Source: Actinomycetes bacterium (GTDB lineage: Bacteria; Actinomycetota; Thermoleophilia; Solirubrobacterales; Solirubrobacteraceae). Taken from it: DNA of 48,577 bases. The stretch covers positions 1 to 48,577 of the forward strand of contig JAJZWB010000005.1 in the NCBI GenBank assembly GCA_021846845.1, given 5' to 3'. A program made the translations under genes and the position numbers. This document shows positions 32,937 to 44,513 of this stretch, in pieces (positions within the stretch are counted from its first letter, which is position 1; the number at the start of each line of letters is the position of its first letter). A model generated the notes under the pieces. The model saw nothing but the letters and a program-made list of their open reading frames with translations. It ran no database searches and was not told the origin of the DNA.

Positions 32937-35900
32937 ATGTCCAGAGGCGGACGGCGCGTGGCCGTGCTCTCGATCACGCTGCTGTGCTCGGCGGGGATCT
33001 GGATCGGTGGCGCCGCCGCCAGGGTGCCCGGCCGTGCCGGTCGCGCCGCCGACCCTGCGAATGGCCGCGCCGCCCACCGTGCAAGCGGCAACGCCCACCG
33101 CGCGCGCCGCGGCATCGGCCCGTTCGCATACGGCGCCCATCGCGGCCTGCCGGCGGCGCGGATCCTGGCCGGTACCGGGCAGGTCCGCACGCGCGTGATC
33201 GTGGTCCTTCGGGACCAGCTGCGCTCGCTGCCATCGACCCGCGCGCACGTTCGCGCCCGGATCGCCGCCGAGGCGAGCGCGGACGCCGTTATCGAGGCGC
33301 GCGTCGCACGCTCCGGCGGCCGCGTCTACCGCCGCTACCGAGCGCTGAACGCGTTCGCCGCCGACGTGACGAGCGCGGAACGCAGCGCGCTGGCGTCCAG
33401 CCCGGATGTCGCGCAGGTGATCCCCGACGTCGTCGTCCGTCTGCCCGTGCTGGACTCCGGGCCGATCAATCCCGGCGCGCAGCCGGGACCGCTCAACAAC
33501 GACAGCCAGGTGTGCCCCAGCGACCCGTCCAAGCCGCTGCTCGAGCCGGAGGCGCTGCAGACGACGCACACCGCCTACGCCGACCCATCGATCCCGCAGG
33601 CTCAGAGCATCGCCACGGGACAGGGGGTCAGGGTCGCGTTCCTCGCCGACGGGTTGGACGTCAACAACCCGGACCTGATCCGGCCCGACGGCTCGCATGT
33701 GATCGTCGACTACAGGGACTTCTCGGGCGAGGGGCCGAACGCTCCATCCAACGGGCTGGAGGCGTTCGGCGACGCCGGCTCGATCGCCGCACAGGGCAAT
33801 GTGGTCTACGACCTGTCGAAGTTCGTCAACCCCGCGCATCCGCTGCCCGCCGGCTGCAACATCAGGGTGCGGGGGATCGCGCCGGGGGCCTCGCTGATCG
33901 CGATCAAGGTCTTCGGGGCGAGCGACAGCGCCTACAACTCGGTCATCCTCCAGGGGCTCGACTATGCCCTGAGCAATGACCACCCGGACGTGATCAGCGA
34001 GTCCTTCGGCGGCTATCCGATCCCGGACTCGACGCAGGACCTGCTGCGCCAGTTCAACGAGCAGGCCGTGGCGGACGGCGTCACCGTGGTCGAGGGCACC
34101 GGGGACTCGGGTGTACAGGCGAGCCCGGGCTCCTCGGCCAGCGACCCGGCCGTGATCGCCGCCGGCGCGAGCACCACGTTCCAGAACTACGCCCAGGGAG
34201 ACCAGTACGGAGCGCAGTTCGCCACTGGCGGCTGGCTGAGCGACAACATCTCATCGGTCGAGTCGGGCGGCTTCACCCAGGGCGGGCGGGTGCTGGACCT
34301 GGTCGCGCCGGGCGAGGCCAACTGGTCGCTGTGCAGCCCCGACACGGCCCTTTACACGGGCTGCGTGGACTTCGCAGGCCGTCCGAGCCCGCTGCAGAGC
34401 TTCGGCGGCACGAGCGAGTCCGCGCCGCTGATCGCCGGCGGCGCGGCGCTCGTGATCCAGGCCTACCGCCAGGCCCACGGGGGCGCAAGCCCCTCGCCAC
34501 AGCTGGTGCGAGAGCTCCTGACGAGCACCGCCACCGACCTGGGAGCTCCCGGCTACGAGCAGGGGGCCGGTGAGCTCAACACGCTGGCGGCGGTCCAGGC
34601 GGCCGAGTCGGTCGGGCTGCCGGCGGCGGACGCGAGCGGCGCCAACCTGCTCGTCTCGCCGACCCAGCTGGATCTGAGCGGCGCCGCCGGCAGCCGCTTC
34701 TCGACGGTCGTGCACGTGACCGATCTCTCGTCGTCCCCCGAAACGGTCGCTGGGGCCGTGCGGCAGATCGGAGCTCAGCTCGCCGATCAGACCGGGTCGG
34801 TCACACTCGACTCGTCGAGTCCGACGTTCGTGGACGGCTTCGGCAACAGCGTTCCATACGAGCAGATCCATTTCTCGGTACCGGCCGGCGCGGACCGGCT
34901 GGTGGCCGACCTGGCCTGGCCGGGTCCCGACGCTCGCGTCGCCCTGACGCTGATCGACCCGCGGGGCCGGCTCGCCGCCTTCACGCGTCCTCAGGGCAAC
35001 GGCGACCACGGCGAGGTCGACGTGGCGCACCCGCCCGCGGGGGACTGGACCGGGCTGATCTTCCTCCGTGACGGCTCCTACTCCGGTCCGGTCAGCTGGC
35101 AGGCGGTCTCCCAGGCGTTCGTCTCCGCCGACTCCGTTTACCCGCGCTCGCGCCTGCTGGAGCCGGGACAGACTGGCGCCTTCCGGGTCGCCGGCACGTT
35201 CCCGGCGGCCGCCGGCGACGTCAGCCAGGAGCTGGTCGTCACATCCGGCGACGGGACCGTCTCGACGGTCCCGATCGCGCTGCGCTCGCTGGTCGCGATC
35301 GATGCCGGCGGCGGAGCGTTCACGGGCAACCTGGTCGGTGGCAACGGACGCAACGGCGCCTTCCAGCCCGGTCAGATCGACACCTACGACTTCTGGGTGC
35401 CGCCCGGCGAGCCGCAGCTGAGCGTGTCGCTGTCCACCGGCGCCAGCCCCGGCACGGTCGTCACGGGCAGCCTGATCTCTCCGGCCGGGCAGGCGGTGAC
35501 GGACGGCGTCAACGCCTACGTGGACGGTGGAGGCGCGATCCACGTCACGGGTGGGCTGCAGGCCTTCGCGCTCCGACCGCGGCCCGGCCTGTGGCGGTTC
35601 GTGGTCGACGTCGTCAACCCGGTCGGCGGCCATGTCCTGTCGGCGCCCTACACGGGGCGGATCTCGTTCGCGCCGCCGCCGATCCAGGTGAGCGGGCTGC
35701 CGGACCGGCGCACCGTCCTGACCGCCGGCACGCCGCTCACTGCGACCGTGACCGTGACCAACGACGGCCCCGGGACCGAGCAGCTGTTCCTGGACCCGCG
35801 CACGGAGGAGCGACGCTTCGTGTCGCTGCTGTCGGTCACTCCGTCAACAGGCGTCCCGCTGCCGGTGCCGATGACCCAGCTGCCGCCGGTCTACCTGATG

Positions 35901-36482
35901 CCGACGGAGACGGACGCTGTCGGGGCGTTCGCCCAGGCCACCCAGCCGGTCACGTTCGACTTCGGCTTCGGCGACCCGAGCCTGGCCGCGATCGCGACGG
36001 GCGAGAGGGCGGCGGGGTACTTCCTCGGCCACGCCACGCCCGGGCTCTGGGACCTGGCCCCCGACGAGCTCGGACCGTTCAGCGGCCCCGCGCCGGCGGG
36101 AACGGTCTCGACCGGGATGGTCGCGCTGACGCGAGGCTTCGACCCCTACGCCAGCTCATCGACCGGCGACCCCGAGGATCAGGCGGTCAACCCCGGCGCG
36201 GCGCCCTACACGCCGCTGACCCTGGGTCCGGGGCAGAGCGGGACGATGACGCTGACGATCACGCCGCCCGCGACCGGGTCGGCCACACCGACGATGTGGC
36301 CCGACGGCCGGGGTCGCGAGCTATCGGGCACCCTGTACGTCGATGCGTTCGACGGCGTGTTCGGGGTCGCCGGGGAGCTGGCGGCGATCCCGTACGCGTA
36401 TCGCCTCGCCGGCCCCGCCCGCCAGCCCGGACACGAGCCGCGACGGCACGCACGCTTCCCCCGATACCCCCGGCGGCGCTGA
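32937..36482 (+). CDS. Secreted subtilisin-fold serine peptidase with sedolisin-like active site
   Basis: An 1181-residue exported protein: signal peptide (1-28), an I9-like propeptide (about 84-170), a peptidase domain (about 225-585) and several beta-sandwich domains to the end. Seen residues: Asp238 in V-A-F-L-A-D-G, S-E-S-F-G-G near 354, GTGDSG with Asp390, and SFGGTSESAP with the nucleophile Ser493. The subtilisin HGTHVAG motif is absent; at its place is E275-A-F-G-D279-A-G-S-I-A-A. Glu at the His position, Asp four residues on, and Asp in place of the oxyanion Asn are the set known from sedolisins (S53: Glu80, Asp84, Asp170, Ser287). It is therefore probably an acid-active peptidase; an inactive pseudopeptidase is the alternative. 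Start fixed by GGGGAGGA. Confidence 0.82.
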   Translation: MSRGGRRVAVLSITLLCSAGIWIGGAAARVPGRAGRAADPANGRAAHRASGNAHRARRGIGPFAYGAHRGLPAARILAGTGQVRTRVIVVLRDQLRSLPSTRAHVRARIAAEASADAVIEARVARSGGRVYRRYRALNAFAADVTSAERSALASSPDVAQVIPDVVVRLPVLDSGPINPGAQPGPLNNDSQVCPSDPSKPLLEPEALQTTHTAYADPSIPQAQSIATGQGVRVAFLADGLDVNNPDLIRPDGSHVIVDYRDFSGEGPNAPSNGLEAFGDAGSIAAQGNVVYDLSKFVNPAHPLPAGCNIRVRGIAPGASLIAIKVFGASDSAYNSVILQGLDYALSNDHPDVISESFGGYPIPDSTQDLLRQFNEQAVADGVTVVEGTGDSGVQASPGSSASDPAVIAAGASTTFQNYAQGDQYGAQFATGGWLSDNISSVESGGFTQGGRVLDLVAPGEANWSLCSPDTALYTGCVDFAGRPSPLQSFGGTSESAPLIAGGAALVIQAYRQAHGGASPSPQLVRELLTSTATDLGAPGYEQGAGELNTLAAVQAAESVGLPAADASGANLLVSPTQLDLSGAAGSRFSTVVHVTDLSSSPETVAGAVRQIGAQLADQTGSVTLDSSSPTFVDGFGNSVPYEQIHFSVPAGADRLVADLAWPGPDARVALTLIDPRGRLAAFTRPQGNGDHGEVDVAHPPAGDWTGLIFLRDGSYSGPVSWQAVSQAFVSADSVYPRSRLLEPGQTGAFRVAGTFPAAAGDVSQELVVTSGDGTVSTVPIALRSLVAIDAGGGAFTGNLVGGNGRNGAFQPGQIDTYDFWVPPGEPQLSVSLSTGASPGTVVTGSLISPAGQAVTDGVNAYVDGGGAIHVTGGLQAFALRPRPGLWRFVVDVVNPVGGHVLSAPYTGRISFAPPPIQVSGLPDRRTVLTAGTPLTATVTVTNDGPGTEQLFLDPRTEERRFVSLLSVTPSTGVPLPVPMTQLPPVYLMPTETDAVGAFAQATQPVTFDFGFGDPSLAAIATGERAAGYFLGHATPGLWDLAPDELGPFSGPAPAGTVSTGMVALTRGFDPYASSSTGDPEDQAVNPGAAPYTPLTLGPGQSGTMTLTITPPATGSATPTMWPDGRGRELSGTLYVDAFDGVFGVAGELAAIPYAYRLAGPARQPGHEPRRHARFPRYPRRR

Positions 36483-36629: not shown

Positions 36630-38687
36630 TCAGACCGACATCGTGCCCTCCAGGATCGCCTCCTCCAGAGTGCGCGGGCCGAGCACGTCGCCGGCTCTGA
36701 CGGCTCCGGGATGGCTCTCCAGCGACGGCCACAGCTCGTCGGCCGGTACGCGGCCCTGGGCGAGCACGAGCGTCGCGCACTCCGGGAGGGGCACCGTTCG
36801 CCCGGAGAAGACGTGCCGAAGCCGTGGCCCTCGTGAGAGCTCATGATGGTGAAGGATGGTCACGCCGAGCCCGTCGAGCCTCGACAGGTACAGGTTGCGC
36901 TGGTACTGATGGAGGGTCTCGCCTGGCACCGGCGCCGCGCACGCGAGCATCACCGCGCAGCCGCAGCCGGCCAGGCGCTCGGCGGCATCCAGTCCGTCCC
37001 AGCCGCCGCCCCAATCGCAGACCAGCGCCGGAGACGCGACCGACGATGGATCGAGGATCGCGTCCCATGCCTGCGTGACCGCCAGCCCGCCGGCGTCCAG
37101 CGGTGGCGAATAGGGGCGCGCGCCCGTCGCGAGCACCACTCGATCGAAGCCGGCGGCCAGCTCGGCGGACGCCTCCACGCCCAGCCGCAGCTCGACGCCG
37201 GCGCTTCGCAGCCGGGCGCTCGTCGAGCGGTGGTATCGCTCCCACGCCTCGGCGTGGCCCGGAGCCAGGCCGGCGAGTCGCAGCTGGCCGCCGATCTCGG
37301 CCTCACGCTCGACCAGCGTGACCGAGGCCCCGTTGCGAGCGGCCTCGATCGCCGCCGCGGCGCCAGCCGGCCCCGCGCCGATCACCAGCACGCGCGGGCC
37401 GGCGCCGCCTGCTGCCGGATCGCGGCCGGGGGCGCCTGCTGCCGGATCGCGGCCGGGGGCGCCTGCTGCCGGATCGCGGCCGAGGTCTCGGGAGCGCGCG
37501 GCTTCGCCGGCTCCGACCGCCCTCAGCCGCGGGGCGGCGTCCGTCCCGAGCGTGCGCTCGCGCCCGGTGCGAGGGTTGACGGCACAGCCGATCGGCAGGC
37601 CCGCGTGGTAATGGCCGATGCACGACTGGTTGCAGCCGATGCACTCGATCACGTCGGCGGCGCGTCCGGCCAGCGTCTTGGCGATCAGCTCGGGGTCGGC
37701 GATCAGAGCCCGCGTCATCCCGACCAGGTCGGCCGTCCCGGTCGCCACCAGCAGTTCGGCCGCCTCCAGGTCGACGATGCGGGTGGTCGCCAGCAGCGTC
37801 GCGCCCGGGACCGCGGCGCGGATCGCGGCCGCGGGCAGCGTGATCGCTGCCGCCGGCGCCGGCGGCGGCGGCGCGATCCATGTCGACGCCGCGGGCTGCG
37901 ACGAGTTGCCCAGCACCAGCGAGACGAAGTCCGCCAGGCCGGCGTCGTGCAGGCGGGCGGTGATCCGGGCGCAGTCCTCGACCCCGAGGCCGCCGGGAGT
38001 GAGCTCGTCGACCGACAGCCGGGCGCCGATCGCGACCCCTTCGCCCGCGCCGTCTCGGACCGCCTGCAGGACCTCGATCGCGAACCTCAGCCGCGCCTCC
38101 GGCGGGCCGTTGAAGCGATCCTCGCGCCGGTTGGTCTGCGACGAGAGGAACTGCGCGATCAGATAGCCATGCGAGAGCGATACCTCAAGCCCGTCGACGC
38201 CACCCTCCGCGGCAAGGCGCGCGGCGGTCCGATAGCCGTCGATCAGGTCCGCGATCTCGGCTGCGGTCAGCGCCCGCGGCTCGGACTTGAAGCGCAGGCT
38301 CGGGACCGCCGAGGGAGCGACCGCGGGTGCCCGCGGCGCCTCGGCGATCACCTCGCGCCCGCCGTGGAACAGCTGCACGAACAGGCGCGTTCCGTGCTCG
38401 CGCACAGCCTCTCCCAGACGCCTGTACGCCGGGACGATCGCCGGCTCGTAGCCCCCGATCGTGTGAGACGTCAGCAGCCCGGTCCGGTGGACCGCGGTGG
38501 CCTCCAGGAACACCGCTCCGGCGCCCCCGGCGGCGCGGGCCCGGTGGTATGCGATCAGATCGTCGGTCGGAAGGTGATCGTGGACCAGACCGGTCTGGTG
38601 CGAGGTCGAGACGACGCGGTTGCGCAGCGTGACAGGGCCGATGTCGATCGGCGCGAGCAGCGCGGCGAGGCGTCCGCGGGCGCTCAT
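36630..38687 (-). CDS. FMN/FAD/[4Fe-4S] oxidoreductase (2,4-dienoyl-CoA reductase / OYE family)
   Basis: A 685-residue flavoprotein with the FadH/trimethylamine dehydrogenase layout: an Old Yellow Enzyme TIM barrel (about 8-345), a [4Fe-4S] cluster site with Cys349, Cys352, Cys356 and Cys368, then a FAD domain beginning V-L-V-I-G-A-G-P-A-G (about 434) and an NAD(P)H domain. It should pass hydride from NAD(P)H through FAD and the cluster to FMN and reduce an enoyl-type substrate. The S-T-S-H-Q-T-G-L-V-H start resembles the FadH/OYE proteins linked to mycofactocin systems, but no mycofactocin genes are in the window. Three in-frame D-P-A-A-G-A-P-G-R repeats extend the linker between the domains. 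ATG 38687 overlaps the MFS stop (ATGA). Confidence 0.88.
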   Translation of the reverse strand: MSARGRLAALLAPIDIGPVTLRNRVVSTSHQTGLVHDHLPTDDLIAYHRARAAGGAGAVFLEATAVHRTGLLTSHTIGGYEPAIVPAYRRLGEAVREHGTRLFVQLFHGGREVIAEAPRAPAVAPSAVPSLRFKSEPRALTAAEIADLIDGYRTAARLAAEGGVDGLEVSLSHGYLIAQFLSSQTNRREDRFNGPPEARLRFAIEVLQAVRDGAGEGVAIGARLSVDELTPGGLGVEDCARITARLHDAGLADFVSLVLGNSSQPAASTWIAPPPPAPAAAITLPAAAIRAAVPGATLLATTRIVDLEAAELLVATGTADLVGMTRALIADPELIAKTLAGRAADVIECIGCNQSCIGHYHAGLPIGCAVNPRTGRERTLGTDAAPRLRAVGAGEAARSRDLGRDPAAGAPGRDPAAGAPGRDPAAGGAGPRVLVIGAGPAGAAAAIEAARNGASVTLVEREAEIGGQLRLAGLAPGHAEAWERYHRSTSARLRSAGVELRLGVEASAELAAGFDRVVLATGARPYSPPLDAGGLAVTQAWDAILDPSSVASPALVCDWGGGWDGLDAAERLAGCGCAVMLACAAPVPGETLHQYQRNLYLSRLDGLGVTILHHHELSRGPRLRHVFSGRTVPLPECATLVLAQGRVPADELWPSLESHPGAVRAGDVLGPRTLEEAILEGTMSV
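37407..37487. repeat. 27-bp tandem repeat, 3 copies
   Basis: Units begin at 37407, 37434 and 37461 with GCCTGCTGCCGG. They are in frame and encode the D-P-A-A-G-A-P-G-R repeats between the Fe-S/barrel part and the FAD part of the oxidoreductase. Confidence 0.92.
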
Positions 38688-42662: not shown

Positions 42663-44513
42663 GTGAGCATCGCGGAGCACGAAGAGGACGGCGACGCCCT
42701 CGAGCGCCTGCTGGACCACATCAGGATCACCCGCGGCTTCGACCTCACCGGCTACAAGCGCGCGACGCTGCGGCGCCGGATCGGCAAGCGGATGGCCGAC
42801 ATCGGGGTCGACTCATACGGCCAGTACATCGACCAGCTTGAGGTCTCGGCCGGCGAGTTCGACGCGCTGTTCAACACCGTGATGATCAACGTCAGCTCGT
42901 TCTATCGTGACCCGAACGTCTGGCGGTACGTCGCGGAGCATGTGATACCCGAGATCCTGCGGCGTCGGGGCGGCGGCGAGCCGATCCGCATCTGGTCGGC
43001 CGGCTGCTCGACCGGAGAGGAGCCGTACACGGTCGCGATGCTGCTCGCCGAGCAGCTCGGAGAGCGTGGCTTCGCCGATCGGGTCAAGGTGTTCGCGACC
43101 GATGTCGACGAGGAGGCGCTCGCGACCGCCCGGCAGGGCGTCTACGCGGCCGCCGGGCTGGAGGCTCTGCCCGCCGAGCTGCGCGACAACTACTTCGAGC
43201 ACGCCGACGGGCGCTGCAGCGTGTCCAAGCCGATCCGCCGGTCGGTGATCTTCGGGCGCAACGACCTCGTCCGTGACGCCCCGATCTCGCGTCTGGACCT
43301 GGTGACCTGCCGCAACACGCTGATGTACTTCAACGGAGATACGCAGCGCAGCATCATGACGCGGCTGCACCTGGCTCTGGCGCCGGAAGGCTTCCTGGTG
43401 CTCGGCAAGTCCGAGCTCCTGCTGACCCTTGGCGAGTGCTTCGCTCCCGAGAGCCTGAGCCTGCGCGTATTTCGCAAGCGGCCGGGCGTGCGGCTGCGCG
43501 GCGGCGGGCCGGCGAGCCTCTCGCGCGCTCCGGCCGGCCGGGGGCCCGAGATCCTCCCTGCGGCCCTGATGGACGCGTTCAGGGTCAGCCCGGTCGCGCA
43601 GCTCGTGCTCGACGCGAGCGGGGGCGTGGCGTTCTGCAACCGGCCGATGGGCGAGCTCTTCGGCATCGGAGAGCGGGAGCTGGGAACGCCGATCCAGGAT
43701 CTGGAGCTCTCCTATCGGCCCGTCGAGCTGCGGTCGCTGATCGAGCAGGCGGCTGCCGTCGAAGGGCCCATCCGCAGCGAGCGCGTGTCCTGGACCGGCC
43801 GCGATGGAGCCGAGCATGAGGTCGAGGTCGAGGTCGTGGCGCTGCGCGGAGGCCTGGAACAGATGGGGACGAGCATCGCGTTCATCGACGTGACGCGCTT
43901 CGCGAGGATCACGTCCGAGCTGGAGCGCTCCAAGCGCGAGCTGGAGTCCGCCTACGAGGAGCTGCAATCGACGGTCGAGGAGCTGGAGACGACCAACGAG
44001 GAGCTTCAGTCGACCAACGAGGAGCTGGAGACCACCAACGAGGAGCTTCAGTCGACCAACGAGGAGCTGGAGACGATGAACGAGGAGCTTCAGTCCTCCA
44101 ACGAGGAGCTGGAGACGATGAACGAGGAGCTCCGGGTTCGCACCGAGGAGCTCAACCGCGTCAACCTCCTTGTCGAGACGATGCTCTCCAGCCTCGGGAT
44201 GGCCGTCGCGGTGGTCGACCGCGAGCTTCGGGTGACGGTGTGGAACGACCTTGCAAAGGACACCTGGGGACTCGATCTCCACGATGTCCGCGACCGGCGC
44301 TTCCTCGGGCTCGACATCGGGCTGCCGGTCGAGCGGCTGCGGGAGCCGCTGCTCGCCTGCGTCTCCGGAGCATCTGGCGCGGTGGAGCGCGTGCTGGAGG
44401 CACGGGACCGTCGCGGGGTCGACGTGCTGTGCCGGGTTCGCTGCACTCCGTTGTCGGACGGTCACGGGGCGGTCGCCGGCGCGATCGTGATCATGGAGCC
44501 GAGCCCGAGCTGA
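42663..44513 (+). CDS. cheR: CheR-type methyltransferase with PAS - coiled coil - PAS tail
   Basis: A 616-residue cytoplasmic protein. The CheR N-terminal helical domain covers 1-75 and the SAM-dependent methyltransferase domain about 76-272: WSAGCSTGEEPYT (111-123), F-A-T-D-V-D near 144, and L-V-T-C-R-N near 213. A PAS domain follows (about 300-410), then a long coiled coil (415-500) made of N-E-E-L-Q-S-T/N-E-E-L-E-T-T repeats, and a second PAS-like domain (505-612). This tail is well known from CheB-CheR fusions and hybrid kinases; here CheB is absent. CheR normally adds methyl groups to glutamates of chemoreceptors, but no chemotaxis gene is in the window. GTG start 42663 has GGGAG 10 bp upstream. 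Confidence 0.88.
   Translation: MSIAEHEEDGDALERLLDHIRITRGFDLTGYKRATLRRRIGKRMADIGVDSYGQYIDQLEVSAGEFDALFNTVMINVSSFYRDPNVWRYVAEHVIPEILRRRGGGEPIRIWSAGCSTGEEPYTVAMLLAEQLGERGFADRVKVFATDVDEEALATARQGVYAAAGLEALPAELRDNYFEHADGRCSVSKPIRRSVIFGRNDLVRDAPISRLDLVTCRNTLMYFNGDTQRSIMTRLHLALAPEGFLVLGKSELLLTLGECFAPESLSLRVFRKRPGVRLRGGGPASLSRAPAGRGPEILPAALMDAFRVSPVAQLVLDASGGVAFCNRPMGELFGIGERELGTPIQDLELSYRPVELRSLIEQAAAVEGPIRSERVSWTGRDGAEHEVEVEVVALRGGLEQMGTSIAFIDVTRFARITSELERSKRELESAYEELQSTVEELETTNEELQSTNEELETTNEELQSTNEELETMNEELQSSNEELETMNEELRVRTEELNRVNLLVETMLSSLGMAVAVVDRELRVTVWNDLAKDTWGLDLHDVRDRRFLGLDIGLPVERLREPLLACVSGASGAVERVLEARDRRGVDVLCRVRCTPLSDGHGAVAGAIVIMEPSPS
43976..44130. repeat. 42-bp coding repeat in the CheR coiled coil
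   Basis: Units of 42 bp (14 codons, E-E-L-E-T-T-N-E-E-L-Q-S-T-N) recur about 3.5 times with small differences. They set the length of the coiled coil in steps of two heptads, so they do not disturb its phase. Confidence 0.75.

Follow-up and report, generated by a model that had tools for sequence, protein, structure and literature searches.

The open reading frame at 32937..36482 (+) of the window, the whole 48,577-nucleotide stretch of DNA that we analyzed, encodes a protein of 1,181 aa that we interpret as a secreted clan SB endopeptidase, predicted to act at acid pH and to combine an S8 scaffold with catalysis of the sedolisin type. Sequence comparison and structural modeling lead us to give this reading a probability of roughly 0.8. 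The protein has full-length homologs, and about 70 of them form a discrete family. The scaffold, propeptide, and C terminus of the family are S8-like, and its likeness to sedolisins is limited to the active site.

Domain architecture

All features of the protein lie on the + strand. Residues 1 to 28 (RGGRRVAVLSITLLCSAGIWIGGAAA; 32937..33020) form a probable Sec signal peptide, as judged from the sequence, and the N termini of the homologs are likewise hydrophobic. There follow an I9-type propeptide (residues 87 to 169, 33195..33443; Pfam PF05922 Inhibitor_I9, E 2.1e-6), a subtilase-fold catalytic domain (residues 228 to 543, 33618..34565; Pfam PF00082 Peptidase_S8, E 5.5e-23, and the AlphaFold model), and an all-beta C-terminal region (34635..36416). 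The C-terminal 594 residues are modeled as beta domains with a pLDDT of 92, in the order of an Ig/fn3-like domain with an inserted jelly roll, a PPC/collagen-binding-like sandwich, and more beta domains. VIA matches this region to domains of Tk-SP, Vpr, and ColG. Parts of it resemble the Tk-SP jelly roll, the Vpr fn3 domain, and a PPC-like domain of the collagen-binding type. A search for C-terminal domains detected fn3_5 in 42 of 52 family members and PPC in 21 of 52.

Family members and distribution

We found a full-length, unannotated homolog with 58% identity in Streptantibioticus cattleyicolor through a tblastn search of plasmids; a single-sequence scan of genome contigs found no homolog. 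One genome scan with an alignment of these two catalytic domains as the query returned 61 further loci, which belong nearly throughout to the Actinomycetota. Related genomes contributed 11 further homologs, one of them a duplicate, and the active-site set is present in the 10 that are nonredundant. Family members score at least 402 bits against the family profile and the next matches at most 128 bits, with the gap between them empty. These next-best matches, outside the family and within S8, are ordinary subtilases that carry Asp, His, Asn, and Ser wherever the motif is covered. All residue conservation counts given here derive from an alignment of 63 family sequences, which has a mean column identity of 56% across the folded region. 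Among Pfam and NCBIfam models, none is specific for the family, and its members match the general S8 model or miss specific cutoffs.

Several loci are unusual. Two (L040 and L050) lie on contigs of bog metagenome-assembled genomes (MAGs) labeled Melainabacteria, which reflects either transfer or misbinning. The Fodinicola copy (L043:3865-5589) stops at 572 aa, directly after the catalytic domain, by truncation or frameshift. One genome of the window's genus (G009) holds three family copies (L071, L079, and L081). Gene neighborhoods show no conservation beyond five loci. Within the window itself, 36630-38687 (-) encodes an NADH:flavin oxidoreductase joined to an FAD/NAD domain, with the short linker GRDPAAGAP repeated three times, and 42663-44513 (+) encodes a fusion of CheR methyltransferase and PAS domains.

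Relationship to S8 and S53 proteases

The S8-type scaffold ascribed to the protein by the sequence-only reading is borne out by the propeptide, the catalytic-domain profile, the fold, and the C terminus alike. PF00082 is matched in all 51 of the members searched, and the I9 propeptide is present in 50 of the 51. The Pro-kuma_activ propeptide (PF09286) is found in 0 of the 51, although the true sedolisins of the window's genome do match it. AlphaFold modeled the propeptide and catalytic domain with a pLDDT of 85.6 and a pTM of 0.90, and the best structural match is pro-subtilisin E (3whi; Z 38, 2.6 Å, 343 residues; Foldseek and VIA-align), with Vpr (8jmw, Z 35.8) and Tk-SP (3afg, Z 35.5) also close. 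The best 50 PDB structure matches listed are all S8 and include no S53 chain, an absence that does not speak against an S53-like fold. Subtilisins also lead the PDB sequence matches, with no S53 chain among the best 60 of 198.

The family also shares with the subtilisins (MEROPS S8A) the core motifs G-x-G-V-x-V-A and AP-A-S-L, the GTS nucleophile loop, and the C-terminal fn3 and jelly-roll domains. It differs from them in having Ala237, Glu275, and Asp390 in place of Asp32, His64, and Asn155, an extra acid at Asp279, a longer post-helix loop, and four family-invariant cysteines. With the sedolisins (MEROPS S53; sedolisin 1ga6 and kumamolisin 1gt9), it shares E-x-x-x-D on one helix, an oxyanion Asp in xGD-x-G, the GTS nucleophile, and a low pI. 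In contrast to sedolisins, its catalytic domain is far nearer S8, its helix and AP-A-S-L segment are S8-like, and its C-terminal domains are of the S8 type.

An identical catalytic set would also be expected of a true S53 member or a direct evolutionary intermediate whose active site shares its ancestry with that of the sedolisins, and phylogeny lends this some support. We built unrooted trees from 169 columns with the catalytic positions left out and with an S8 sample limited to plasmids and Actinomycetota. Three groups emerge: S53 separates at 100/100, and the family attaches to the S8-S53 stem near S8; the split between S8 and the family plus S53 has support values of 99/88 in the first set and 93/86 in the second. 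However, the stem placement is possibly a long-branch effect, and the helix after Asp279 follows an S8-like pattern (A-S-S-I-A-A) rather than the I-E-V pattern of S53. Profile comparison with hhalign scores the family at 351 against S8 (E 1e-49) and at 85 against S53 (E 5e-11), and S8 against S53 at 116 (E 3e-15); by this measure, the family comes no closer to S53 than ordinary S8 enzymes do. Together with the missing Pro-kuma_activ propeptide, these scores make S53 membership or a direct intermediate unlikely. On the earlier suggestion that the protein may bridge the two families, the evidence is divided: the position on the stem near S8 would suit it, and the profile scores show no added similarity to S53. 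Because the trees are unrooted, that position fits both an intermediate and an early, convergent S8 branch.

By the features that define the two families, these proteins combine Peptidase_S8 similarity, an I9 propeptide, and a subtilisin fold with A237, E275, and D390 where S8 has its Asp-His-Ser triad and oxyanion Asn. They have the Glu-x-x-x-Asp of S53 on one helix plus Ser and the oxyanion Asp, and they lack both the PF09286 propeptide and a catalytic-domain similarity to S53 above that to S8. We therefore assign them to a group of their own within clan SB.

The window's genome also has genes for a single classical S8 protease and for three true sedolisins with Pro-kuma_activ (L001, L003, L004, and L005); the classical S8 gene and one sedolisin gene are convergent neighbors on one contig (C103). 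In another sampled genome (G058), two proteins that have Pro-kuma_activ along with E-x-x-x-D and GTS (L119 and L121) form a long, divergent branch within S53.

Predicted geometry of the active site

A single unbroken helix in the model, residues 274 to 284 (33756..33788; DSSP of the AlphaFold model), bears both the predicted general base Glu275 (33759..33761) and the predicted catalytic acid Asp279 (33771..33773). Aligners disagree at this helix: two sequence alignments open a gap of 4 to 5 residues between Asp279 and Ala280, while a third, broader one sets Glu275 on His64 with no gap. Residues 280 to 285 correspond to subtilisin 69 to 74 in every alignment, which, taken with the unbroken helix, would place Glu275 at His64 in space and set Asp279 where Val68 stands, an arrangement like that of sedolisins. 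The model thus agrees with the original proposal that Glu275 occupies the subtilisin His position. Glu275 and Asp279 would then correspond to Glu78 and Asp82 of kumamolisin, with the same E-x-x-x-D spacing (PMC11593635). The predicted oxyanion residue, Asp390 in GDSG (34104..34106), takes the place of subtilisin Asn155 and kumamolisin Asp164; Ser356 (34002..34004) is at the position of subtilisin Ser125 and kumamolisin Ser128; and Ser493 in GGTSESAP (34413..34415) is the predicted nucleophile. Sedolisin has 80-EWDLD-84 and the oxyanion motif SSGD, and kumamolisin has 78-EVELD-82 and AAGD (PMC11593635). The E-x-x-x-D pentapeptide and the oxyanion xxGD of the family agree with both.

The second acid of the site has another candidate. 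Residues 228 to 246 align without a gap with subtilisin residues 23 to 41 (VAFLADGLDVNNPDL versus VAVIDSGIDSSHPDL), and in this register Ala237 falls on Asp32 and Asp238 on Ser33 (33645..33650), so the view that the protein keeps the subtilisin Asp as Asp238 is off by one residue. Position 237 is Ala in 59 of 63 sequences. An acid occupies position 238 in almost every member (57 Asp and 4 Glu of 63), and in the remaining two an Asp precedes it by one or two residues. Asp238, which in the model sits at the end of the strand adjoining the former Asp32, could accordingly be an alternative partner of Glu275, with the acid after a beta-strand replacing Asp279 in that role. We give this arrangement little credence, as its acid aligns with Ser33 instead of Asp32, the spacing of Asp279 is exactly that of sedolisins, and Asp279 is lost along with Glu275 and Ser493 in pseudoprotease members that keep Asp238.

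Conservation and loss of the active-site set

The four residues named in the sequence-only reading are present as it described: Glu275, Asp279, and Ser493 are each found in 61 of 63 sequences, as is Ser356, and Asp390 is found in all 63. The E-x-x-x-D, GD, and TS motifs are common to every member apart from one pseudoprotease lineage of two loci. This conservation across the family, set beside the classical residues of other S8 proteins, indicates that the motif is far beyond chance.

The pseudoprotease lineage comes from Streptosporangiaceae MAGs (L057:4150-5604 and L059:4138-5607). Both proteins have lost Glu275, Asp279, Ser356, and Ser493, with Ser356 replaced by Pro in each, and both retain the oxyanion Asp, Asp238, H514, and the full C terminus. 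Of 94 positions that are at least 97% conserved in active members, only 16 are lost in both, including E275, D279, S493, and S356. Since the two are 70% identical to each other, they probably lost these residues in one event. The joint loss nonetheless singles out Glu275, Asp279, and Ser493 as working together.

Such proteins raise the question of whether the whole family might be a dead subtilase that serves as a binding or scaffold protein, given that the histidine and Asp32 are absent and that two clear pseudoproteases keep their C terminus intact. That is a slim prospect: a dead enzyme would have little reason to hold the Glu, both Asp residues, and the Ser near-invariant, as they are elsewhere in the family, and the active-site block is lost jointly in one lineage only. 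We rejected an ordinary His-based S8 site with its His supplied from elsewhere in the sequence, which is barely conceivable: H514 is invariant and the only conserved His, but it lies 21 residues past Ser493 at the end of a long helix and is kept in the pseudoproteases, which makes a conserved His base unlikely, and every other His is less than 80% conserved.

Proposed mechanism and origin

In the sedolisin-type mechanism that we favor, the signal peptide and I9 propeptide would deliver and fold the catalytic domain, which is probably freed by self-cleavage. Glu275 would deprotonate Ser493, and Asp279, one helical turn on, would share a proton with Glu275; Asp390 would stand in for the oxyanion Asn. 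From the replacement of a histidine pair by two carboxylic acids, we infer action at acid pH, about 3 to 5. The catalytic domains of the family have a pI of 4.42 (K+R 4.8%), compared with 4.51 (5.4%) for S53 and 5.97 (8.2%) for S8. A low pI with few basic residues, as in sedolisins, is in line with an acid optimum and does not prove it, being common among secreted proteins. Since the genes have no conserved operon context, the role of the protein would most simply be extracellular protein digestion.

It is quite possible, at somewhat less than even odds, that the Ser-Glu-Asp mechanism evolved twice, the second time within the S8 lineage. One simple route would be the deletion of GTHV, one turn of the helix, from the S8 motif D-x-x-G-H-GTHV-A-G, after which D-x-x-G-H would have become E-x-x-G-D followed by A-S/G, with acids at the His64 and Val68 places. 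Losing these four residues would be one step, and it would be enough to move an acid into the place of the His. We offer this route as a hypothesis, for which the evidence is the fit of the gaps at the helix in two of the alignments and the Gly at -1 and aromatic residue at -2 that the family has in common with many actinobacterial S8 proteins.

Our literature search found no description of the family. In 2007, Siezen, Renckens, and Boekhorst (Proteins 67:681) reportedly distinguished a sedolisin-like subset of subtilase-fold proteins that have Glu for His and fall outside classical S8 and S53. The conserved Asp of that subset is said to sit on a strand, whereas the Asp conserved throughout the present family is on the same helix as its Glu. 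The NCBI CDD entry "Peptidases_S53_like", to judge by its name, presumably covers subtilase-fold proteins with an S53-type site. Both leads may lower the novelty of the group.

For clan SB, the question of how a His-based protease could turn into a carboxyl-based one that acts at acid pH is still open. The family offers an S8 scaffold with a sedolisin site in place, in about 70 natural sequences and with a natural dead-mutant lineage, and the S8 and S53 enzymes encoded in one genome alongside a family member provide a comparison set. The transition between His- and carboxyl-based proteases is thereby made testable by mutagenesis, and the family could supply acid-active enzymes on a robust subtilisin scaffold.
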